NCBI GenBank assembly: GCA_018812625.1
Contig: JAHJDH010000024.1
Span: 1 to 42,430 of the forward strand
Direction: 5' to 3'
DNA: 42,430 nucleotides
Source: Microcaldota archaeon
Lineage (GTDB): Archaea > Micrarchaeota > Micrarchaeia > Anstonellales > Bilamarchaeaceae
A program made the position numbers and the translations under genes. Shown here one piece after another: positions 23,674-42,167 of this stretch (positions within the stretch are counted from its first letter, which is position 1; each line of letters starts with the position of its first letter). The notes under the pieces were generated by a model. The model saw only the letters and a program-made list of their open reading frames with translations. It was not told the DNA's origin and searched no databases.

Positions 23674-24783
23674 ATGATCAACTCAAAAAGAACTTTACGA
23701 ACAGCCTTGGCCATCACGGTTTCAGTAGCATTTGCACAATCATGTGCTATGAGAGCAAAAGAGCCTCTTGTAGATGCGAAAGCCCAACTTCCTAAACCAG
23801 TGTCAATTGCTGGAGTCTCTAATACTATTAGGTCCGTTGAAGAAAAACAAACAAAAAGCCACAAACAAAGGATGAGGGAAGCTATCAAAACAATAAGGCA
23901 TGGGACTGATCAAGAGAAATCAGCTGCGCTTGATGAACTAAAGAACAATGCAAATAATTCAACTATTCCTCTTCTACTCCATGAGCTGGATGATCAAAAT
24001 CAGTCTGCACATTCTATCATCGTCTTTGTATTGGGCAAGCTGAAGGCCAAATCAGCTGTTCCAAAACTCATAAAACTCGCAGAAACTTCTGAAGTTATCT
24101 TCGAATCAATAGAAGCTCTTGAAAAAATAGGTGACATGCGGGCAATTCCTGTTCTAAGCAAAAAAGCAATAGATCAAGATCCATATACTCAAGCATTATC
24201 AATCAGTGCACTTGGAACTCTTGGTGCTCATGAATCAGCATCTTTAATTCTCGATGCACTAAAGAGCAAATTTGAACCTGTACTTCTAAGCGCAACTCGG
24301 GCTATTGGAAAACTCGCAGATGAGAGGGCTATTCCAGATTTGATGGCTGCTCTTCTACACAGAAGCCCAGATATATCCTCTGCGGCAAGAGATTCTCTTG
24401 GAAAAATTGGAAAACCTGCACTACGTCCACTTCTAAGTGCTTTGCAAAATGCCACCATAAACGATCGGATATATCTGATTGAAGCTATTGCAGAAATTGG
24501 AACTGTTGGAATTCCTACACTGATTCAAGAAATTTACACTGCAAGTCCAACAGCAGCATATGGGATTGTAGTTGCTCTTGGAATAATCAAGGACAAGTCT
24601 ACTATCCCAACTTTGACTATGGCACTAGAACATCCAGAGCCTAATGTTCGTGGAACTGCAGCAAATTCTCTTCGAATTATAGGGGATAAATCAACCATAC
24701 CGGCTCTTGAAAAAGTCATTACAAACGATTCAAGTCCATTTGCAGTAGCAGCTGCACGTGCAGCAATAGAATCAATGCAATAA
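23674..24783 (+). CDS. HEAT/PBS-lyase repeat protein with lipoprotein-like N-terminus
   Basis: TVSVAFAQSCAMRAKEP N-terminus; repeated ~31-aa HEAT units (AIPVLSKKAI..; STIPTLTMALEHPEPNVRGTAANSLRIIGD). Confidence 0.8.
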   Translation: MINSKRTLRTALAITVSVAFAQSCAMRAKEPLVDAKAQLPKPVSIAGVSNTIRSVEEKQTKSHKQRMREAIKTIRHGTDQEKSAALDELKNNANNSTIPLLLHELDDQNQSAHSIIVFVLGKLKAKSAVPKLIKLAETSEVIFESIEALEKIGDMRAIPVLSKKAIDQDPYTQALSISALGTLGAHESASLILDALKSKFEPVLLSATRAIGKLADERAIPDLMAALLHRSPDISSAARDSLGKIGKPALRPLLSALQNATINDRIYLIEAIAEIGTVGIPTLIQEIYTASPTAAYGIVVALGIIKDKSTIPTLTMALEHPEPNVRGTAANSLRIIGDKSTIPALEKVITNDSSPFAVAAARAAIESMQ

Positions 24784-24820
24784 ATTTCTTTTTTAAAATT
24801 CTTTGTTTTCTATTTCAGTT

Positions 24821-25804
24821 ATGTCCAAGACCGAATCAAGAAAAAAAGATCATGTTGAGCTTGTAATTGAAAAAGGAGCACAATATGAAAAAACAACTGG
24901 TTTTGAAAAAATAGAATTTGTTCACAATGCACTTCCAGAGGTTTCTCTTGAAAAAATAGATCTTTCTATGAAGTTTCTGGGGTACAATCTGAAATATCCA
25001 GTTGTTATTACGGGAATGACTGGCGGATACTCTGATGCAAGTCGGATAAACAAAGGACTTGCAGAAACTGCACAAAAATATGGATTTGCATTTGGTCTTG
25101 GCTCGCAACGTGCAATGATCGAAAAGCCTGAACTTGCAAAAACCTACCAGGTTCGCGATGTTGCTCCTGATATCCCAGTCATATCCAATATCGGTGCATA
25201 TCAGCTCAAGAAATATTCTTTTGAGCAGATAGAGTCTCTTGTTGACTCGGTTGAAGCTGATGCTCTTGCTGTTCATCTAAATCCTCTTCAGGAAGTTATC
25301 CAAAGCGAAGGAGATACTGATTTTACTGGCATCATTGCTGCCATTTCAAAAACTGCTGAAAAACTTGATGTTCCTGTGATTGCAAAAGAAACCGGGGCTG
25401 GGATAAGTCAAAATGTTGCATTAAAGCTTAAATCTGCTGGCGTGAAATACCTTGATCTTGAAGGTTCTGGAGGAACTTCCTGGAGCAAGGTGGAATATCT
25501 TCGCTCTGCTGCTGTGCCTGGTTTTGAAAACTGGGGAATTCCAACTGTTCATTCTATTCTTGAATGCCGGGGAATTCTACCAATGATTGCAAGCGGTGGC
25601 ATTCGCTCTGGCATTGATGCTGCAAAATCAATTGCACTTGGTTCTGAACTCTCTGGCGCTGCATATCCGTTCATTAAGGCCTTTGATGCTGGTTCTCTCG
25701 AGAAATATGCATCAACATTTACTGCGCAGATGCGAATGTGCGCGTTTCTCACTGGTTGCAGCAATTATAAAGATCTTAGGACTGCCCGAACTGCGTTTAT
25801 CTGA
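24821..25804 (+). CDS. fni: Type 2 isopentenyl-diphosphate delta-isomerase
   Basis: RKKDHVELVIEKG, PVVITGMTGG, GLGSQRAMIE, HLNPLQEVIQSEGD, VIAKETGAGIS, IASGGIRSGIDAAKSIALGSELSGAAYPFI. Confidence 0.95.
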   Translation: MSKTESRKKDHVELVIEKGAQYEKTTGFEKIEFVHNALPEVSLEKIDLSMKFLGYNLKYPVVITGMTGGYSDASRINKGLAETAQKYGFAFGLGSQRAMIEKPELAKTYQVRDVAPDIPVISNIGAYQLKKYSFEQIESLVDSVEADALAVHLNPLQEVIQSEGDTDFTGIIAAISKTAEKLDVPVIAKETGAGISQNVALKLKSAGVKYLDLEGSGGTSWSKVEYLRSAAVPGFENWGIPTVHSILECRGILPMIASGGIRSGIDAAKSIALGSELSGAAYPFIKAFDAGSLEKYASTFTAQMRMCAFLTGCSNYKDLRTARTAFI

Positions 25805-25878
25805 GATTCTATTTCTTAGAATCTCAAGAACGAGGTTATCCAATTTTTTCCATTATCTTGTGGTTTTAAGTGGAAAAA

Positions 25879-25914
25879 CATATATTTAAAAGCTGTTTAT
25901 GCCATAATTGTATT
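25879..25914 (+). promoter_or_regulatory. Predicted TATA-like promoter for the RSH pair
   Basis: catatatttaaaagctg about 20-35 nt upstream of ATG 25915. Confidence 0.4.
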
Positions 25915-27255
25915 ATGTCCCCCACACTAAGAGCAGGCTCTGTAATGCAAAAACCTTCCAGTCCTGACTTTGTTAAAATATCTTCTAAAGGGCAGATAGA
26001 ATCAATTATGGGGGCAAAACAACTGTCTGGTGTTTCAGCACCAATAGTCTCGAGGCTGAAACAGGCAAAATCACATTATGAGGAGCTTGGAGCACATGAT
26101 GTATATGCTCACAATTGCCGTGTTCTCTTTGCAGCTGCAGAAGGAAAAATAGTTGATCTGCAGGCAACAGAAGAAGATGGTCTTTCTCTTAAAGTTGTTG
26201 ACCAGATTCTCTACCACTCAATAGCATCAGACTTATTCCTGCCAAATTCAGTCCAATTTTCAACTGACTTTATGCAAGCATTTACTCTTCAGAGACAGCT
26301 CAATGATCTTGATTCAACTAAATTTGATCGATCTGGAGAATATGTAAGGTTGCTCAATGATCCTTCAAACGATCTCACTGCCCTTCTGGTTGCTCTATAT
26401 ACCAGAATTGCAGACATGATGACAATCCACGCTCCAGAGACTACAAAAGCATCAAAAACAGTTATGCCGGGAGTATTCCCTCTTCACTCCAGTTGGAGAA
26501 CAGTTCAAAGAGCAATGGCAGAGCCTATGCTTAAGGTTTATTGTCCAATTGCAGATTGGGGAGGACAGACTCATGCATACAGGCAGATGAGGGATCATGC
26601 TGTTTTCTACCAGTACCCAGAGCAATTCCTTGAGCTTAGCAAAGAAGTACAAAAATATTCCGGAGCTGTTGCAAATACAAATGTTTTCCTTGCAAGAGTT
26701 CTTCAAAAAATGGCCAAAAAACTAGAACTAAATGTCATTATTGCAGAAGATTATCAAAAAGTTTCCAAACTCTTTTCTGAAGTTGGGCCAAATACAGTTG
26801 TTGTTGCGCTCAAGCCTTTCAAAGGAGTTGGTGGGCTTCTGCACAAATCAATCAAAAGAGACATTCCAGTAGAAAAGATTCATGATTGGTCAGGCCTTAC
26901 AGTTATCACAGACAATGAGCAGCAGATGTATGATGTCGTTGCGTTCCTTCAAAACGGGGGAGTCAGGTCAGCAGCCAAAAGTGTGGGGGTTGCTGATCTT
27001 TACATTCACGAGCCTACGGACTATGCAAGAAATCCAAAGCAAGTTACAAACTACCAGAGCGTTCACATTGACGTAGTTACTTCAAGTCCTCTTATGATGC
27101 CTGCAGAATTCATTGTAAGGACTCTTGACATGCACAAAAAAGCTGACGAGGGTGAGGCGTGCCATGATGGATACAAAGGGTCTCCACTTGTCAATGGCGA
27201 GAGGGCCAGATTGATGCAAAGACTTGCAGAGATCACAAAATCGCATTTCATATAG
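25915..27255 (+). CDS. RelA/SpoT homologue (RSH)-like protein 1: degenerate HD region plus synthetase-like domain
   Basis: HD-region remnants YAHNCRVLFAA, LYHSIASD, VALYTRIADMM, LKVYCPIADW; synthetase-like KPFKGVGGLLHKSIK...KIHDWSGLTVIT, NPKQVTNYQSVHIDV, AEFIVRTLDMHKKADEGEACHDGYKG. Confidence 0.75.
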   Translation: MSPTLRAGSVMQKPSSPDFVKISSKGQIESIMGAKQLSGVSAPIVSRLKQAKSHYEELGAHDVYAHNCRVLFAAAEGKIVDLQATEEDGLSLKVVDQILYHSIASDLFLPNSVQFSTDFMQAFTLQRQLNDLDSTKFDRSGEYVRLLNDPSNDLTALLVALYTRIADMMTIHAPETTKASKTVMPGVFPLHSSWRTVQRAMAEPMLKVYCPIADWGGQTHAYRQMRDHAVFYQYPEQFLELSKEVQKYSGAVANTNVFLARVLQKMAKKLELNVIIAEDYQKVSKLFSEVGPNTVVVALKPFKGVGGLLHKSIKRDIPVEKIHDWSGLTVITDNEQQMYDVVAFLQNGGVRSAAKSVGVADLYIHEPTDYARNPKQVTNYQSVHIDVVTSSPLMMPAEFIVRTLDMHKKADEGEACHDGYKGSPLVNGERARLMQRLAEITKSHFI

Positions 27256-27285
27256 TGTTACAAAAGTTTAAAAACAGGTTTTTAC

Positions 27286-28872
27286 ATGAATATAGACATG
27301 TCCCTAGCTAAAAATCTACCCAGTGGTAGAAATGTTCCTAAGCAGCTTCATGCTCAGATAGCTAGATGGTCTGCCACTTATCAAAAATTCGGGGGACAGG
27401 ATGCAGTTCCCCATGTCCTGAGAGTTCTTGACTCATCAATCAAACACAGTGTAGTAGAGCCAGAGAAAATCGGCAATATCAAAAAAGATCCAAAACAGCT
27501 CAACCTTCAGCTTGCAAGTGTTATACTGGCGCATGTGTTTCGAAGGAATTCTTCAAACAAAGCAGATTTTCCAACAGAAGATTTTGCAAGATTCCCGTAT
27601 GTTATGGAAGGCTTCAATACTTTTAATGCTCTGCGGAATAATGATCTGTCTAATCAAGATCCAGATGAATACAAGAGACTTTTAGCAGAACCTTCCCTTG
27701 GTTTACTTGCCAGAATGATTGATCTGCCACAATATGGTATGGGCTCTCATCGTTCTGAGGGTGAGCTGAGGCATCTTAATCCAGGTAGGTTCTATGTGTT
27801 TGATGGCTCACACGGCAAGTCAGAATATGAATTAATAGGAGAGGCTGCCAAAAAAGTATATTCTCCACTTGCTGATTTGCTTGGGTATAGAACTCTTGCA
27901 GGTCAGCTCTATCAGCTCTATTATTATCATGTTGATAAGAGCACATATGATGCAGTTATTAAATCACTCTTTCAATTAGAGCTTAGAATTGCAGCTACAT
28001 CTACTCTTTGTGATTATGCAATTTCTCTGCTTTCATACGAACTTCAACATAAAGGATATAAATTTTCTATTAACCGCCGCTTAGCAAAACACCCTGGAAA
28101 AGTTATGGAAAAAACAGATCGATACTCGCGCGAAAGCGGCAGAAAGATTCCTGATATCGTTTCCAATCTCAATGATCTGGTTGCATTTACTGTGGTGCTC
28201 AGATCCAGAAATGGAAAATTAATCACTCAAAATGATGTTCATGAGTTTGAGGATGTTGCAAGAATAATTGTAAAAATAGTTTCTTCTCTTCATCCAATCA
28301 GCCATGCTGGAAGATCAAACATGTTTACTGATATGGTAACTCATCCAAAACCCAATGGATACCAGTCTTTCCATGTTGATATGCCTTTGGAAGGAACTGA
28401 AGTAGTTAATCTTGAGGCAATTGTAAGAAACGGGAGGATGGAAGAATATAGTAAGACTGGAGGGGCTGCACATTACCTCTATAAAGGCGGAGGTGATCTT
28501 GCCAGATCCGTTTCAAATGCATATCATGGCATTATGGATGCAATGACCGGCAAGTCTAAAGTTGTTTCAGATTCAGTGAATCAAAGAATGATCAAAGTAA
28601 AAATCGACGGAACGATTCGTCAGAGGATGGTTGATCAACGTGCATGTGTTGGCGAGGCTCTTATCTGCGCAGATGTTGATCTTTCAAATGGTCTTATTCT
28701 TAAACCTAAAATTTCTCTTCTTGCTCCAATAAAAGGGATAGATACTCTGAATCTTGAGCATGCTCCAGTATCTGGACAGCTGCTTTCTCGAACAATGGTA
28801 CAATTACTATTGGAAAAATCAGTTACTCCTCATGCTCGAGAAAAACTTTTGGCATACCTCAAGCAATGCTAA
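27286..28872 (+). CDS. RSH-like protein 2: degenerate HD, synthetase-like domain, TGS-like C-terminus
   Basis: VPHVLRVL, ILAHVFRRN, AAKKVYSPLADLLGYRTLAGQLYQL; RLAKHPGKVMEK..LNDLVAFTVVL, HPKPNGYQSFHVD, VNLEAIVRNGRMEEYSKTGGAAHYLYKGGG; C-terminal IKVKIDGTIRQRMV...SVTPHAREKLLAYLK resembling TGS. Confidence 0.78.
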   Translation: MNIDMSLAKNLPSGRNVPKQLHAQIARWSATYQKFGGQDAVPHVLRVLDSSIKHSVVEPEKIGNIKKDPKQLNLQLASVILAHVFRRNSSNKADFPTEDFARFPYVMEGFNTFNALRNNDLSNQDPDEYKRLLAEPSLGLLARMIDLPQYGMGSHRSEGELRHLNPGRFYVFDGSHGKSEYELIGEAAKKVYSPLADLLGYRTLAGQLYQLYYYHVDKSTYDAVIKSLFQLELRIAATSTLCDYAISLLSYELQHKGYKFSINRRLAKHPGKVMEKTDRYSRESGRKIPDIVSNLNDLVAFTVVLRSRNGKLITQNDVHEFEDVARIIVKIVSSLHPISHAGRSNMFTDMVTHPKPNGYQSFHVDMPLEGTEVVNLEAIVRNGRMEEYSKTGGAAHYLYKGGGDLARSVSNAYHGIMDAMTGKSKVVSDSVNQRMIKVKIDGTIRQRMVDQRACVGEALICADVDLSNGLILKPKISLLAPIKGIDTLNLEHAPVSGQLLSRTMVQLLLEKSVTPHAREKLLAYLKQC

Positions 28873-29324
28873 ATCTGCGCAAAGTCTGTCAGTTTCTTGA
28901 CTACATTGAGAACCATGTTTGTGTTTGTCTTTTCAACTCCATTAATTGCAAGAATCCTTTTTACCAATGCTGAGAGCTCTCCTCTGCTTTTGCACATCAG
29001 AATCGCAGTTGCATCATATTGTCCTGTAGTATCATAAATTGAAGCAACTCCCTTTAGTTTGCTGATCTTATCCTGGATGCTGAGAAGGTCTCCTCTCATT
29101 GCAATCTGGACTATTGCCATAAATTCGAATCCTAATTTAAGATAATCAAAATTCGCTGAGTAGCCTGTAATCACACCTTCCTTCTCCATCCTTTTTATCC
29201 GATCTATCAAGGTCGCTGGACTCAGTTTGGTGCTTAGTGCCAGTTCCCGATATGAACGCCTGCAATTTTGTTTGAGTTCCTGCAAAATAAGTAGATCCGT
29301 CTTGTCCAATTGTTTGGAATTCAT
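28869..29324 (-). CDS. Lrp/AsnC family transcriptional regulator
   Basis: LDKTDLLILQELKQNCRRSYRELALSTKLSPATLIDRIKRMEKEGVITGYSA plus RAM domain. Confidence 0.95.
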   Translation of the reverse strand: MNSKQLDKTDLLILQELKQNCRRSYRELALSTKLSPATLIDRIKRMEKEGVITGYSANFDYLKLGFEFMAIVQIAMRGDLLSIQDKISKLKGVASIYDTTGQYDATAILMCKSRGELSALVKRILAINGVEKTNTNMVLNVVKKLTDFAQI

Positions 29325-29459
29325 CGATGTGCACCTTCATAATCTAAACATATGTAATGAATATTTATATAGTTATCTATCATTTGTTTGGTTTTTTATA
29401 AAAAACTAATAAATACAATGGAATTCTATCCAAATTCAATACAAATGAGAGGAATCAGC

Positions 29460-30785
29460 ATGAAAGATGAACTATTTGAAAGTATGGAATCTGATAATGT
29501 GAAGTTTGTGAATCTTCAGTTTACTGATATGTTTGGGATGGTAAAATCTATCTCAATTCCAATCAATCATCTTGAAAATTCATTTGACCATGGGACTTGG
29601 TTTGATGGATCTTCAATCGAAGGATTCGCAAGAATTCATGAGAGTGATATGTATCTCAAGCCAGATATGGAAACCTATGCCGTTCTTCCATGGCACAATT
29701 CTTCTGATGGGAATACTGCAAGATTTATCTGTGATGTTCACAAACCTGATGGTTCTCCGTTTGAGGGCGATCCTAGATATGTTCTCAAAAAAGTAATCCA
29801 GGAAGCAAAAGATCTTGGTTTTGATTATAATGTTGGCCCTGAACTTGAATTTTTCCTCTTTAAGCGAGAAAATGGAAAACTTCTTCCAATTCCGCACGAT
29901 AGTGGAAGTTATTTTGATCAGTCAAATGATTTGGCATATGATATTCGAAGAGATATGAACGTTACTCTTCAAAAATTTGGAATTAATGTTGAAGCGAGCC
30001 ATCATGAGGTTGCACTTGGGCAGCATGAAATTGATTTCAAATACGGCGATGCACTGTCAACTGCAGATAATGGAACTACTTTCAAGTTTGTTCTAAAGGC
30101 AATTGCACAGAAGCATGGACTGCATGCAACATTTATGCCAAAGCCCGTTCCTGGAATAAATGGTTCTGGAATGCATGTTCATCAAAGCCTGTTTAAAGAT
30201 GGAGAAAATGCCTTTTTTGATGAATCAAACAAATACCATCTCTCAAATCATGCCTATTCTTTTATTGCTGGCCAGCTTGCCCATGCAAAAGCAATGTCTG
30301 CAATTCTTTGTCCAACAATTAATTCATATAAGAGACTTGTTCCTGGATATGAGGCTCCAGTATATCTAAGCTGGGGCCATACAAATCGTTCTGCCCTAAT
30401 CAGAATCCCCAGATACTCAAAAGGAAAAAGTCAGTCTACAAGGTGCGAAATCCGCTGTCCTGATCCTAGCTGCAATCTTTATCTTGCATTTGCAGTTCTT
30501 CTAAAAACCGGGCTCGATGGCATGAAAAACAACATGATCCCTCCAGATTCAATAGAAGAGGATTTGTATGGATTTGATGATAAAAAACTTGAAGATATGA
30601 AAATCAATACTCTTCCAGATTCTCTGCAATCTGCTCTAAGAGAATTTAAGAGGGATGATGTGATCCGCGATGCTCTTGGCAAGCATACATTTGAGAAATA
30701 TATTGAAGCAAAAACAAAAGAATGGGATTCATACAAATTGCAGGTAACTCCATGGGAAATTGAAAATTATCTTGAGAAGTACTAG
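29460..30785 (+). CDS. glnA: Glutamine synthetase type I (start could be 29418 or 29448)
   Basis: WFDGSSIEGFARIHESDM, GPELEFFLF, HQSLFKDGENAFFD, YKRLVPGYEAPVYLSWG, RSALIRIPRY. Confidence 0.96.
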   Translation: MKDELFESMESDNVKFVNLQFTDMFGMVKSISIPINHLENSFDHGTWFDGSSIEGFARIHESDMYLKPDMETYAVLPWHNSSDGNTARFICDVHKPDGSPFEGDPRYVLKKVIQEAKDLGFDYNVGPELEFFLFKRENGKLLPIPHDSGSYFDQSNDLAYDIRRDMNVTLQKFGINVEASHHEVALGQHEIDFKYGDALSTADNGTTFKFVLKAIAQKHGLHATFMPKPVPGINGSGMHVHQSLFKDGENAFFDESNKYHLSNHAYSFIAGQLAHAKAMSAILCPTINSYKRLVPGYEAPVYLSWGHTNRSALIRIPRYSKGKSQSTRCEIRCPDPSCNLYLAFAVLLKTGLDGMKNNMIPPDSIEEDLYGFDDKKLEDMKINTLPDSLQSALREFKRDDVIRDALGKHTFEKYIEAKTKEWDSYKLQVTPWEIENYLEKY

Positions 30786-32967: not shown

Positions 32968-33239
32968 CTACCTATAGCGATTTTGAACAATTTTTATCAG
33001 TTCGTTAATTGGTTCAAGCATTTTGTTATCGATTTGCCCTATTAATTTTGCAACTGCATCTTCTGCGTCCTTACTCTTTTCTACTAATAACTGTGGGAAA
33101 GATTTTGTTCTTTCAGTTTGCTCTGGCATTGGCGCACTAGTTGAGTGTTTTTCTAAAATTTCAGCAACTTTTTCTTGTCTATTTTGTCTGGCTTATCTGA
33201 AGGAATTCTGTCAAGTTTCTTTAGAAGCATTCTTTTCAT
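32968..33239 (-). pseudogene. Frameshifted ORF: MKRMLLKKLDRIPSDKPDKIDKKK / VAEILEKHSTSAPMPEQTERTKSFPQLLVEKSKDAEDAVAKLIGQIDNKMLEPINELIKIVQNRYR
   Basis: ATGA overlap with the HEAT gene stop; frame breaks at an A5 run (T5 at 33169-33173 on +); adding one A joins two protein-like halves into one 90-aa frame. Confidence 0.5.
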
Positions 33240-34741
33240 TCTTTGTCTGGAGGTTTATCAGTAACTGATTCAACTGTTCCTTTGCCGCAATCTTTTTCTA
33301 TTCTTTTCCTTAGTGATTTGAAAAATGTTATCTGTTCTTCAAAATCAACTTCGCCTTTTGCACATGCGTCTGTAAATGTTTCAAGTCCAGATACTCCTGT
33401 TTTTGCAAGAGCCAAAGCAGTTCTCCGTAGTATGTTCGAATACTTATCCTCCAAAGCATCTACTGATCCAGGAACGGCAGCCCCTCCAATCCCCTCAAGA
33501 GCACTAGCAGCTAATCTTTGCACATCTGGATCATCATCCTCCAAAGCATCTAACAATCCAGGAACAGCAGGTTTTCCAATCTCTCCAAGGGCCAGAGCAG
33601 CATGCAATCGTACATCCTTATCCCTCAAAGTATCTATTAACGCCGGAACAGCTCGTTCATCTCCAATCTCTCCAAGAGCCCAAGCAGCACTCGCACGTAC
33701 ATTCTCATTTTTATCACTCAAAGCATCTATTAACAGCGGAACAGTTCGTCTATCTCCAATCTCTCCAAGAGCCACAGCAACATTCCATCGTACATTCTCA
33801 TTTTTATCACTCAAAGCATCTAACAATTCAGGAACAGTTTGTTTATCTTTAATCTCTTCAAGAGCCTCAATAGCACCATCCCGCACATTCCTATTTTTAT
33901 CACTCATAGCAACTAACAATTCAGGAACAGCAGGTGCCCCAATCTCTCCAAGAGCCTTAGCAGCACCCTCCCGCACTTCCCACTCTTTATCCTTCAAAGC
34001 ATCTATTAACGCCGGAACAGTTCGTCTATCTCCAATCTCTCCAAGAGCCTTAGCAGCACCCTCCCGCACTTCCCACTCTTTATCCTTCAAAGCATCTATT
34101 AACGCCGGAACAGTTCGTCTATCTCCAATCTCTCCAAGAAGTTCACAAGCACCAAATCTAATGTTTTCATTATTATTTTTCAAAGCAACTACTAATCCAT
34201 CAATGGCAGGTTCACCAATTTTTTTAAGAGCCTTATTAATACTAAATCGTACAGACCAATCAATATCTCCTAGAGCAGTTATCAATTCTTCTATAGAATG
34301 TGGATCGCCAATCTTTTCAAGAGCCAACGCGGCCTCCTGCCGCACCCACAAATTCCCTTCTTTCAAAGCACCTATCAATTCTGGAACAGCGCGTTTATCT
34401 CCAATTTCTCCAAGAATGTAAGCAGTATGTGCTCGCACTTCTGAATCTGAATCCTTTAGTAACTCAACCAATACATCTATTGCATGTTCATCTCCAATTT
34501 TTTCACGTCCATTCACAGAAATTTTTCCAAGTTCTGTTATAGCTTCCTTTTTTTCTTCATGATCTCCAGAACTGATTATTGATAGTTGGTCAATTACAGC
34601 CGCTGGAATCATCTGAGCATCACAACCTCTAACTGAGACTCCCATATCTAAGATTCTTGGCGAATGTTCAGTTCCAAAATCTCCTTTTGGTTTTTCTCTT
34701 TTTGGATCATTTGATTTAACATCTGATTTTTTTTGAGTCAT
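33236..34741 (-). CDS. HEAT/PBS-lyase repeat protein, ~501 aa
   Basis: Many ~31-aa GDRRTVPALIDALKDKEWEVREGAAKALGEI units. Confidence 0.92.
   Translation of the reverse strand: MTQKKSDVKSNDPKREKPKGDFGTEHSPRILDMGVSVRGCDAQMIPAAVIDQLSIISSGDHEEKKEAITELGKISVNGREKIGDEHAIDVLVELLKDSDSEVRAHTAYILGEIGDKRAVPELIGALKEGNLWVRQEAALALEKIGDPHSIEELITALGDIDWSVRFSINKALKKIGEPAIDGLVVALKNNNENIRFGACELLGEIGDRRTVPALIDALKDKEWEVREGAAKALGEIGDRRTVPALIDALKDKEWEVREGAAKALGEIGAPAVPELLVAMSDKNRNVRDGAIEALEEIKDKQTVPELLDALSDKNENVRWNVAVALGEIGDRRTVPLLIDALSDKNENVRASAAWALGEIGDERAVPALIDTLRDKDVRLHAALALGEIGKPAVPGLLDALEDDDPDVQRLAASALEGIGGAAVPGSVDALEDKYSNILRRTALALAKTGVSGLETFTDACAKGEVDFEEQITFFKSLRKRIEKDCGKGTVESVTDKPPDKE
33939..34139. repeat. 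Perfect 93-bp tandem duplication (plus partial third copy) inside the HEAT gene
   Basis: ccaatctctccaagagccttagcagcaccctcccgcacttcccactctttatccttcaaagcatctattaacgccggaacagttcgtctatct occurs twice in tandem with no mismatch. Confidence 0.9.
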
Positions 34742-36313: not shown

Positions 36314-37300
36314 TCATACGATTGCATTGAACACGTATCCGATTATCATTGCAGCAAATAATGTAACTGCCAAAAACGCTGCGAGCAGCCTCCACTTCAA
36401 GATTTTGTTCAAAATTATCAATTCAGGAAGCGACACTGCGACGATTGCAGTCATAAATGCAAGAAGGTTTCCAAGTGGCATTCCTTTAAGGGCAAGAGCC
36501 TCAATAACTGGAACCACTCCAATGGAATTTGCGTAAAGCGGCGCGCCAACAATCACGGCTGCGGGAACAGACCACCAAGTTTTTGCAGAAAGATACTCAT
36601 CCACAAGACTTGCTGGAACAAAACCATGTATCAACGCTCCAATCCCGACTCCAAGAACAACATATGGAAAAACCTGCTTTGTTATAATCCATCCGTCCGC
36701 CCACCAAAATTTTGCAAGCTCCTTCAACCCGGGTTTCTTTCCATTGCCGTCTGTTTGCAAGGAATCATCCATCTTAGGGGACTTAAGCAAACTCTGATCA
36801 ATATATTTTTCAAGATTTATTTTCTGAATCAAAAAGCCGCCCGCCATTGCAAGAATAATCCCCAGGACATTGTAAATCAAGGTCACTTTTAAGCCAAAAA
36901 TAGCAGGAAAAAGGTAAAGTGATGCCTCGTTTATCAGAGGAGAGGATATAAGGAATGCAAAGGTCACTCCAATAGGTATCCGAACACGCATGAAGCCTAT
37001 GAAAAGAGGAATTGAAGAGCATGAGCAGAATGGGGTTATTACTCCTAGAAATGCAGCAAAAAGATAATCAAGACCAAACCAACGCCTTTTCGCAAGAATG
37101 TCCCTCACTTTTTCCATTGGAAAATAATATCTGATAACCGCCATCAGGTAATTTATGACAACAAGCATGAATCCTATTTTAATCAAATCATAAATAAAAA
37201 AATTGACCCCGTCACCGAGATATGTGCCATTGCCAATTCCGAGCAGGTCATAAGTTACCCAGTCAGCAAACCACTGGATGGGGAGGAATATGTCTACCAT
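36314..37300 (-). CDS. Permease (DUF318/ArsP-like family)
   Basis: Polytopic; GVITPFCSCSSIPLFIGFMRVRIPIGVTFAFLISSPLINEAS is the family's CSC motif. Confidence 0.88.
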   Translation of the reverse strand: MVDIFLPIQWFADWVTYDLLGIGNGTYLGDGVNFFIYDLIKIGFMLVVINYLMAVIRYYFPMEKVRDILAKRRWFGLDYLFAAFLGVITPFCSCSSIPLFIGFMRVRIPIGVTFAFLISSPLINEASLYLFPAIFGLKVTLIYNVLGIILAMAGGFLIQKINLEKYIDQSLLKSPKMDDSLQTDGNGKKPGLKELAKFWWADGWIITKQVFPYVVLGVGIGALIHGFVPASLVDEYLSAKTWWSVPAAVIVGAPLYANSIGVVPVIEALALKGMPLGNLLAFMTAIVAVSLPELIILNKILKWRLLAAFLAVTLFAAMIIGYVFNAIV

Positions 37301-37328
37301 ACTATCACTAAGTAAATTTCAGTCCAAC

Positions 37329-37562
37329 TTACTCCTTCAGCCATCCGACTATCTCCTTTACATCGGGAATCCGTCCGGACGCCTTCACTTTTCCGTCTAT
37401 CGCAATGGCCGGGGTGGACATGACGCCGAATTCTATTATCTTCGTCATGTCTGTTACCTTCGATATCTCAATTTTCATGCCTAGTTCTGATACCGCCTTC
37501 TTCGCGTTCTCCTCAAGCCGCCTGCAATTAGCGCACCCGCTTCCGAGTATTTCTATCTTCAT
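37329..37562 (-). CDS. Small thioredoxin-like protein (redox-active disulfide protein)
   Basis: MKIEILGSGCANCRRLEENAKKAV...GVMSTPAIAIDGKVKASGRIP: CxxC and cis-Pro. Confidence 0.9.
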   Translation of the reverse strand: MKIEILGSGCANCRRLEENAKKAVSELGMKIEISKVTDMTKIIEFGVMSTPAIAIDGKVKASGRIPDVKEIVGWLKE

Positions 37563-37563
37563 T

Positions 37564-37812
37564 TTACCACCTTGAAATGTCCTCAAGAACACGCTTCCCT
37601 TTCTCAGACAGGGAATACATGTGCCTTGTACTATCTTTCCTCAGATTAACGAGGCCGCTTTCACGCAAAACCTTAAGGTGTTGCGAAACCGCAGGCTGAG
37701 TCTTTCTTACTTTGCAAGGAAGCTTACATGCGCAGATCTCTTTTCCTTCCAGACATCGCATTATCTTAAAACGGGTCTCATCTGAAATTGCCTTGAGGAT
37801 ATTAACAGCCAT
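37564..37812 (-). CDS. ArsR/SmtB family regulator
   Basis: ISDETRFKIMRCLEGKEICACKLPCKVRKTQPAVSQHLKVLRESGLVNLRKDSTRHMYSL; Cys cluster CACKLPC. Confidence 0.92.
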   Translation of the reverse strand: MAVNILKAISDETRFKIMRCLEGKEICACKLPCKVRKTQPAVSQHLKVLRESGLVNLRKDSTRHMYSLSEKGKRVLEDISRW

Positions 37813-40134: not shown

Positions 40135-40269
40135 ACTCTATTTCAGAGAGTATTTCTGTTCTTATGGGCGTGTTAGAAAAAGATGAGAAGGTTCTGCCAT
40201 CACTCTTTAAAGATATTCCAGAGACAACCTAATTCTGAAAGTGATGTTGCACCATCATGGTTGATAATT

Positions 40270-41361
40270 ATGGATCTGCTTGAAAAACTAAAAGAAAAGA
40301 ATCTGAAAAAAGTTGCGGAAGAAATCACGCAGCAAGATCCTGAAAAGATTGTTCCTGCTCTTGTTGAACTAATTGAAAATGAGGAAGTAAGAGATAATGT
40401 CTGCTATATGCTTGCTGCTATAGTGAATAAGAATCCTGAGAGCAAGGCGATTCTGAATGCCATTCCAGTCTTTATTGAAATGCTGGATGATACGGACAAT
40501 ACTATCCGGGCCAACGCTTGTTTTTCTCTTCTTATTCTTGCTAATTACAATCCTAAAAACAAAGACATTGTAAATTCCGTTCCAGTATTGACCATAAAAC
40601 TCGAAGATCCAGAGCCTTCCGTAAGAAAGAATGCTGCAGGAACACTCGTATTCATAGCACAATACAATGGCAAAAAAGTTGCAGAAGCTATCCCTGCTTT
40701 GATCAAATTGCTTGAGGATAAAACTGAGAATGTCCGGATCAATGCTGCTAATGCCCTTGCTATGTCTTTCCAGGAAAATTCTGAAAACAAGGATCTTCTG
40801 AATGCAGCATCTAACTATCTTCAAATGTTTATGGAAATGATGGTCTCTGATAGCGAGATTGTACAGCAGAATGCTGCTCTTTTGATCGGCTATATTGCTC
40901 AAAAAAATCCAGAAGCGGTTTTGAGTAATGTTACGCAATTTATCCAGATGCTGGACAACAAAATCTGGAGAGTGCGTTGGAATTCTATAGGAATTCTCGG
41001 ATTAGTTCTGCTGAAATATCCTCAAGAAAAGGAAATTGTCCTTGCTATGCCAAGGTTCCTCGAGCTTATGGAAGATGAAAACACAATGGTGCGTTTTAAT
41101 GCTGTTGGGATTGTGGGATCTCTTGCACATAAAAACCCAAAAAGTAAGGAGATTTCAGATTCCATATCAAGATTGATAAAAGCACTGAAGGATGAGAGTG
41201 GGGATATAAGGCTCAGGGCTTCGGCTTGGCTTCCACTCATTGCAGAAAACAATGCAAAGTATCTCGAGAAGTCTATTCCGGCGCTAAGAGAATCACTGAA
41301 AGATGAGGATGAGAGGCTGCAAAAAAATATCAAAAAAGTACTTGAAAAATTGGGGGGATAG
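40270..41361 (+). CDS. HEAT/Armadillo-like repeat protein
   Basis: ~38-aa repeats ending VRKNAAGTLVFIAQYN, VRINAANALAMS, VRFNAVGIVGSLAHKNPK. Confidence 0.85.
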   Translation: MDLLEKLKEKNLKKVAEEITQQDPEKIVPALVELIENEEVRDNVCYMLAAIVNKNPESKAILNAIPVFIEMLDDTDNTIRANACFSLLILANYNPKNKDIVNSVPVLTIKLEDPEPSVRKNAAGTLVFIAQYNGKKVAEAIPALIKLLEDKTENVRINAANALAMSFQENSENKDLLNAASNYLQMFMEMMVSDSEIVQQNAALLIGYIAQKNPEAVLSNVTQFIQMLDNKIWRVRWNSIGILGLVLLKYPQEKEIVLAMPRFLELMEDENTMVRFNAVGIVGSLAHKNPKSKEISDSISRLIKALKDESGDIRLRASAWLPLIAENNAKYLEKSIPALRESLKDEDERLQKNIKKVLEKLGG

Positions 41362-41362
41362 T

Positions 41363-41608
41363 ATGATGCCACCGGTATGTAAAATTTGTAATAAAGATTT
41401 CAGAAACGAAGAAGAATGCGGTCTTCTTCATTTCAAGAAAACAGAAAAGGACGACGAATTTGATAGAAAATGCGAGGAAGATGGTTTTGTTGGGCATCCT
41501 CCATATGCTGCCTGGTTCTGCAAAGAGCACTACGAAGAAGCAAAGAAATTAATCAATCTCACTCTTGATGAAGCAATGGAAATTCTCAGAAAGAAATTCG
41601 ACTCCTAA
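41363..41608 (+). CDS. Small zinc-finger-like protein
   Basis: CKICNKDFRNEEECGLLHF...CEEDGFVGHPPYAAWFCKEHYEEA with Cys/His pairs. Confidence 0.6.
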   Translation: MMPPVCKICNKDFRNEEECGLLHFKKTEKDDEFDRKCEEDGFVGHPPYAAWFCKEHYEEAKKLINLTLDEAMEILRKKFDS

Positions 41609-41627
41609 AAATATTTTGGTGATACTC

Positions 41628-42167
41628 ATGAATCTACCCGAGAAATTGCGAAAATCCAAACTTGTAACTCTAGCATTTGAATTCTCACAAAAGGCCCACA
41701 CAGGCCAAAAAAGAGACAGTGGCGAGGAGTATATCGTACATCCATATCGAGTATGCATCTCTTTGTTCGAAGAATTTGGAATCGAAGATGAAAACCTGCT
41801 AGCAGCCGGGCTTTTGCATGATGTTATTGAAGATTCCAGTACCTCTCATGAACAATTGTCAAAACTATTCAATGAAAGAGTTGCAAACCTGGTTGATGCG
41901 GTTACAAAGAAAAAAGATTCTACTGATCCAAAATGGAAAGAAAAATACTACAAAAACATTCAAAATTCCGATGAACAAATTCAATTGCTAAAATTTGTTG
42001 ATCGTCTTGATAACATCAGAGACCTAATATCATGTCCGTCAAAAGAAAAACAGATACGTTATTTGAAGGAAACAAAAGAATTATTTCTTCCTTGGGCTAA
42101 GAAATTCAATGAAAAAGTTTATGAGAAACTAGTCCAAGAAATAGAAAAAATCGAGGTTTCAACATGA
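41628..42167 (+). CDS. HD-domain (p)ppGpp hydrolase-like protein (SpoT/MESH1-type small alarmone hydrolase)
   Basis: AFEFSQKAHTGQKRDSGEEYIVHPYRVCISL, LLAAGLLHDVIEDSSTSHEQLSKLFNERVANLVDAVTKK, LLKFVDRLDNIRDL. Confidence 0.85.
   Translation: MNLPEKLRKSKLVTLAFEFSQKAHTGQKRDSGEEYIVHPYRVCISLFEEFGIEDENLLAAGLLHDVIEDSSTSHEQLSKLFNERVANLVDAVTKKKDSTDPKWKEKYYKNIQNSDEQIQLLKFVDRLDNIRDLISCPSKEKQIRYLKETKELFLPWAKKFNEKVYEKLVQEIEKIEVST

Follow-up and report, generated by a model that had tools for sequence, protein, structure and literature searches.

The window analysed here, a stretch of 42,430 nucleotides, is one complete contig of a 1.27 Mb MAG (43 contigs) whose host is a Micrarchaeota-type DPANN archaeon. 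Its forward strand carries two adjacent RelA/SpoT-like (RSH-like) genes. ORF1 (gene 1; 25,915–27,255; 446 aa), a member of the group we call clade A, encodes a pseudo-HD domain, an RSH linker and a synthetase domain and lacks a TGS domain. ORF2 (gene 2; 27,286–28,872; 528 aa), from clade B, encodes a pseudo-HD domain, a linker, a synthetase domain and a TGS-like segment, and its conserved start is probably the ATG at 27,298. Directly upstream of the pair lies a gene for a type 2 IPP isomerase-like (FMN) protein, idi2 (24,803–25,804, forward strand). The downstream neighbours are an Lrp/AsnC regulator gene (28,869–29,324, reverse strand), convergent to the pair, and the glutamine synthetase gene glnA (29,388–30,785, forward strand), from which the regulator gene diverges. 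All three neighbours are conserved, in the order idi2-RSH(-RSH)-Lrp-glnA. Among 20 close-family loci examined, the RSH gene stands immediately 3′ of a type 2 IPP isomerase gene in 15 and such a gene is found nearby in 17, with Lrp present in 12 and glutamine synthetase in 13. Because this synteny is kept in relatives, contamination was rejected as an explanation of the locus; relatives of the ORF1 type occur in Candidatus Micrarchaeota and in 'Candidatus ainarchaeum sp.'. Elsewhere in the window, HEAT-repeat proteins are encoded in three places (23,674–24,783, 33,236–34,741 and 40,183–41,361), the first of them a short way ahead of the RSH pair, flanked by idi2 and a gene for a membrane protein. 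An arsenic/metalloid-type cassette (36,314–37,812, reverse strand) has an ArsP-type permease, a thioredoxin-like protein and an ArsR-family regulator in a row.

Both ORFs match the Pfam RelA_SpoT profile PF04607 (45.9 bits for ORF1 and 44.5 bits for ORF2, with a cut-off of 27), being the sole two such matches in their own genome, and both match TIGR00691 from the linker onwards; neither gives a match to Pfam HD_4 or TGS. When an alignment of 25 archaeal members was compared by hhalign with six bacterial long RSHs, the family reached a probability of 99.9% and E=1.3e-33 over 393 columns that cover hydrolase, linker, synthetase and TGS, and the ORF1 clade by itself still gave E=2.1e-16. The long-RSH order of HD, linker and synthetase is thus present in the family, and the original prediction, which saw two adjacent ORFs of this order, is borne out by both the Pfam scores and the profile comparison. 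It is not plausible that two adjacent matches of such strength arose by chance, and the arrangement is repeated in six other genomes. The linker motifs that had been quoted are found in both proteins (VYCPIADW in ORF1, VYSPLADLLGY in ORF2), as are the YQS(V/F)H motif (YQSVH and YQSFH) and the catalytic-type Glu regions (EFIVRT and EAIVRN).

The predicted structures agree with this assignment. AlphaFold (AF2) models of ORF1 and ORF2 have a mean pLDDT of 84 and 87, respectively. Searched against the PDB with Foldseek, the ORF2 model retrieves SpoT, RelA and Rel, with a best E of 3.7e-13 (SpoT, 7qpr) and a best target-normalised TM of 0.70 to T. thermophilus Rel with AMP and ppGpp (6s2u). The ORF1 model retrieves Rel and SpoT (best E 2.7e-8, B. 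subtilis Rel), with a target-normalised TM of 0.73 to B. subtilis Rel in the DarB complex (8acu_B), and also matches RelP/RelQ structures. Hence both ORFs have a RelA_SpoT match and a model with a synthetase fold, the two points on which the prediction was staked. Its TGS-like end of ORF2 stands in part: residues 433–492 (28,582–28,761, forward strand) align with the bacterial TGS region and are modelled as a beta-grasp of strand-strand-helix-strand-strand order, with weak Foldseek matches to ubiquitin-like and FERM F0 folds, but Pfam does not recognise the segment as TGS. ORF1 stops before this region, as proposed. No ZFD/RRM or ACT domain was found by Pfam in either protein, and the ORFs end at 446 and 528 aa; they are therefore long-RSH-like catalytic halves and not full long RSHs.

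The hydrolase half is degraded. In ORF1 it spans 26,035–26,484 (forward strand) and keeps H81, H116 and D182 (residues numbered from position 25,870), with the HD aspartate and the ED pair lost. The bacterial HDxxED motif (LHDxxED) is replaced by LYHSIASD in ORF1 and by ILAHVFRRN in ORF2; the HD aspartate and the ED pair are gone throughout the family, and the hydrolase motifs of clade B are less regular. H81, H116 and D182 correspond to three of the four metal ligands and are invariant in 7/7 clade A sequences, and all 14 sequences of clades A and C keep the first-motif His, the second-motif His and the third-motif Asp. We place H116 in the register of the HD histidine partly because the second hydrolase motif of relatives in family f19 reads YHE or YHN. 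The earlier view that the HD motif is lost in both proteins thus holds for the HD aspartate and the ED pair, but three putative metal ligands survive in the clade of ORF1. Judged by these residues, hydrolysis by the pseudo-HD domains is unlikely and metal binding possible.

The synthetase half has kept its core. The RelA_SpoT domain of ORF1 (26,821–27,180, forward strand) has D339, Y395, E413 and H432 as invariant residues, and that of ORF2 (28,084–28,491, forward strand) has D297, Y359, E377 and H396. All 25 archaeal sequences share, without exception, two Lys, the guanine-stacking Tyr, the catalytic Asp and Glu (the metal residues) and the residues of G-x-A-x-H; the catalytic Asp and Glu are also present in the divergent clade D. 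No variation was seen in clade A at any of the 14 active-site positions chosen (P=1.4e-7 within the synthetase domain).

The adenine end of the site is different. In RelSeq/RelTt, adenine is sandwiched by R241/R249 and R269/R277 (PMC7983052), and it is at the latter, adenine-stacking position that ORF1 and ORF2 carry T344 and T302 (DWSGLTVI and DLVAFTVV), as the original prediction had noticed. Thr occupies this position in 7/7 sequences of clade A, 5/6 of clade B and 2/2 of clade D, and in 0/7 of clade C, which has R or K. In clades B and C the distance from the first clamp Arg to the Lys is greater by one residue (in ORF2, R265 precedes K268 by three residues); clade A has Lys here, except for a single Arg, and K315 of ORF1 is near this position. 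Moreover, the Gln of the E-x-Q motif is replaced by Ile in clades A and B (Leu in one clade B member), whereas clade C keeps R/K at the clamp together with E-x-Q. Most other RSH and SAS proteins of the phylum retain the Arg at the R277 position, the exceptions, with Thr or Met, being f19, G070 and G023. As these three lack the Arg and have the Gln, a strict linkage between loss of R277 and loss of the E-x-Q Gln was rejected; f19 retains E-x-Q and the first Arg. Neither ORF1 nor ORF2, then, has the two Arg that sandwich adenine. Since the clamp Arg belongs to the substrate site, its replacement weakens the case for ordinary ATP-dependent (p)ppGpp synthesis without touching membership in the RSH fold superfamily.

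ORF1 and ORF2 share 24% identity, and ORF1 has orthologues of 47–58% identity in six other genomes. In the trees, clade A comprises the ORF1 type of seven genomes, where it invariably precedes a second RSH gene; clade B comprises ORF2 and five others. Clade C supplies the second gene in G005, G007, G013 and G015, the sole gene found in G009 and G021, and a copy at a contig end in G012. For G008 and G010 the second gene is of the divergent clade D. All pairs therefore begin with a clade A gene, and gene 2 is drawn from clade B, C or D; identity between the archaeal clades is about 16–25% over the 25 aligned sequences. ORF1 and ORF2 are ancient paralogues and not a recent duplication, because their identity is low and the clade of gene 2 varies among genomes. 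Of the proposed duplicated archaeal RSH lineage, the paralogy therefore stands and the simple duplication does not. Pairwise dN/dS, counted where synonymous sites are unsaturated, is 0.10–0.28, which indicates purifying selection.

Of 301 genomes of the phylum, 33 have matches to the family profile (E<1e-20), and 23 of these 33 belong to the same family as the window. A scan of genome contigs with ORF2 as a single protein gave no match, and one with the ORF1-clade alignment gave six loci. RSH-type synthetase domains as such are found in 66 of the 301 genomes, so the assumption that RSHs are rare in archaea does not apply to this phylum; RelA/SpoT genes of DPANN archaea have, in addition, already been published (PMC8407392). 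The related families form a series, with f18 consisting of canonical bacterial-type long RSHs and f26 and f19 of shorter relatives. Three loci from another family of the phylum (L112, L113 and L114, in G100, G102 and G101, respectively) encode canonical long RSHs of about 650 aa that score >600 bits to the bacterial long-RSH profile and in which HDxxED reads HDVCRD, HDVCKD and HDVPRD. A distinct type of synthetase, with the motifs QRLKRVP and DIGGCRA, is seen at L041:6750-7826 and in G044, G064, G099, G108, G123, G149 and G196, i.e. in several families of the phylum.

Upstream of gene 1 lies a conserved promoter/operator of clade A genes (25,859–25,902, forward strand), TGTG-N8-TGG-AAAACATAT-TTTAAAAG, the last part being the TATA box. 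The consensus, TGTG...TGG(A/G)AAAACATAT..TTAAAA, is almost identical across seven species, with 27 invariant upstream columns for gene 1 against 3, the start ATG only, for gene 2. ORF2 has a TATA-like box of its own, TTTAAAA (27,267–27,273, forward strand), about 25–31 nt ahead of the ATG at 27,298, and most RSH genes of the set carry such a box about 25–33 nt ahead of their conserved ATG (exceptions include G012b, G013b, G001 and G022). This spacing is that expected for leaderless archaeal genes. A GTG frame that opens at 25,870 was rejected as a conserved N-terminal extension of ORF1, as it crosses the conserved promoter; we assign its start to the promoter because most RSH genes carry their TATA-like box at an equal distance from the conserved ATG. 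The upstream conservation suggests gene-specific regulation of gene 1 and speaks against a simple operon, although read-through may occur, and the element may be the operator of some regulator. Regulation of the two proteins as a heteromer, which the original prediction also considered, gains no support from these data, and each gene has its own TATA box. Used as a regulon marker in a search of the genome, it gave no other copy with fewer than two mismatches, and its matches were not much above the backward control.

About 13 kb from the pair, near the contig end, the window encodes a small alarmone hydrolase of the MESH1/SpoT-hydrolase type (41,565–42,167, forward strand; 200 aa). It looks intact, with the HP, HD, ED and D motifs present (HPYRV, LHDVIEDS, FVDRLDN), and scores 67.9 bits against PF13328 HD_4 and E 1.6e-21 against the hydrolase domain of S. 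aureus Rel (7oiw). Orthologues of 44–46% identity are found in G008 and G015, both pair-bearing, and in G017. The hydrolase is thus present in 3/7 pair-bearing genomes, and the other four, MAGs that are incomplete, show none. The G008 and G015 copies have EM in place of the ED pair and may therefore be weaker. On another contig of the same genome (G000:C43:30439-30564), the last 42 residues of the hydrolase are encoded a second time at 98% identity, possibly through an assembly overlap or as a fragment. An intact hydrolase in the same window, which the original prediction had not noticed, makes a split between synthetase and hydrolase plausible.

We propose that both ORFs encode divergent synthetases of RelA type [hS] whose donor pocket is modified and whose product is hydrolysed in trans, a reading to which we give somewhat better than even confidence. 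Both would be anciently diverged members of an archaeal (Micrarchaeota) RelA/SpoT lineage, in which a hydrolase fold that probably no longer hydrolyses is joined to a synthetase keeping the metal-binding and acceptor-nucleotide residues. Pyrophosphate transfer to a guanine nucleotide would most likely be retained by both proteins, with the adenine end of the donor gripped in another way, as Thr replaces one clamp Arg and the other is displaced. The product would be degraded in trans by the separate SpoT-like hydrolase. As each gene has its own promoter, the two synthetases could respond to different signals, gene 1 via its strongly conserved element.

Counting against this proposal, the hydrolase was found in just 3/7 pair-bearing genomes, although these MAGs are incomplete, and (p)ppGpp went undetected in the two RSH-less archaea tested (PMC8646023). 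Loss of the clamp Arg could weaken ATP binding enough to abolish synthesis. One or both proteins might be non-catalytic pseudo-synthetases, serving as regulatory subunits or as nucleotide-binding sensors for GTP or an alarmone, with ORF1 perhaps regulating whichever second protein lies beside it. The changed clamp residues in both ORFs would fit such a role, and so would the constant adjacency of gene 1 to a second RSH whose type varies and which, where it comes from clade C, keeps R/K and E-x-Q. Yet the catalytic Asp and Glu, which a pseudo-enzyme could dispense with, are invariant in 25/25 aligned sequences and are seen even in clade D, and the two genes have separate TATA boxes, so that we regard this explanation as rather unlikely. 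The fixed, non-random Thr at the R277 position of clade A (7/7), the Ile in place of the E-x-Q Gln in clades A and B and the Thr or Met at the same position in the neighbouring family f19 could also mean, in line with the changed substrate specificity that the original prediction envisaged, that the pocket now takes pyrophosphate from a donor other than ATP, or that the pair makes a different alarmone. However, the base need not change upon loss of one stacking Arg, and the changes are not tightly linked, as f19 shows by keeping E-x-Q and the first Arg; we deem this improbable.

A last reading, that these are decaying and functionless bacterial rel genes gained laterally, could point to the lost HD residues and to the canonical bacterial-type long RSHs of f18, which score >600 bits to the bacterial profile. 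It is strongly disfavoured by the conservation data and to us scarcely credible: the frames are open in the genomes examined, dN/dS is well below 1, the active site is invariant, and locus and promoter are conserved. The paired genes are real, conserved and probably functional.

Among known systems, the pair resembles E. coli RelA, a RelA[hS] long RSH, in its inactive HD domain, linker, active-type synthetase core and, for ORF2, TGS-like segment. It differs by an identity of only about 15% in a structure-based alignment, the missing recognisable ZFD/RRM/ACT C-terminus, the replaced adenine-clamp Arg, the tandem paralogues and the archaeal host. With bifunctional Rel (T. thermophilus, B. subtilis, S. 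equisimilis) it shares the fold of the catalytic half, and clade A also three of the four putative HD metal ligands; unlike these enzymes, it lacks the HD aspartate and ED pair, has Thr for R277/R269, and has R249/R241 shifted by one residue or replaced by Lys. The hydrolase at 41,565–42,167 resembles MESH1 and other small alarmone hydrolases in its full HP/HD/ED/D set, on a gene separate from the pair. CapRel/toxSAS proteins are toxic synthetases with an adjacent or fused antitoxin. They share the synthetase fold, and ORF1 has a weak Foldseek match to CapRel, but the pair shows no antitoxin partner, has a long-RSH layout and lies in a conserved housekeeping locus. A toxin-antitoxin or defence role was rejected, given the neighbours (idi2, a second RSH, Lrp and glnA) and a PADLOC match of only E=0.006 (ORF1).

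Archaea had no long RSHs in the survey of Atkinson et al. (2011; PMC3153485), and (p)ppGpp was undetected in Haloferax volcanii and Sulfolobus acidocaldarius, the two archaea tested, both of which lack RSHs (PMC8646023). A 2021 survey of DPANN archaea, likewise organisms with small genomes, listed RelA/SpoT for 69% of Diapherotrites and for part of the Woesearchaeota, Pacearchaeota and Nanoarchaeota, with a predicted origin by transfer from bacteria; the part of that survey considered here gives presence only and makes no mention of a tandem pair, a dead HD domain or an altered donor site (PMC8407392). In the open-access literature searched, we found no description of the tandem pair, the loss of the adenine-clamp Arg or the conserved locus.

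In summary, the RSH-type synthetases of this lineage have nitrogen-assimilation genes as neighbours in a conserved locus, and the same contig encodes a hydrolase. An archaeal stringent response, a starvation alarm of the bacterial style, thereby becomes directly testable with few genes, and the fixed Arg-to-Thr change offers a natural test of the role of the adenine clamp in RSH chemistry. If the donor pocket has indeed been remodelled, this would be an archaeal nucleotide alarm with its own chemistry and a separate hydrolase.
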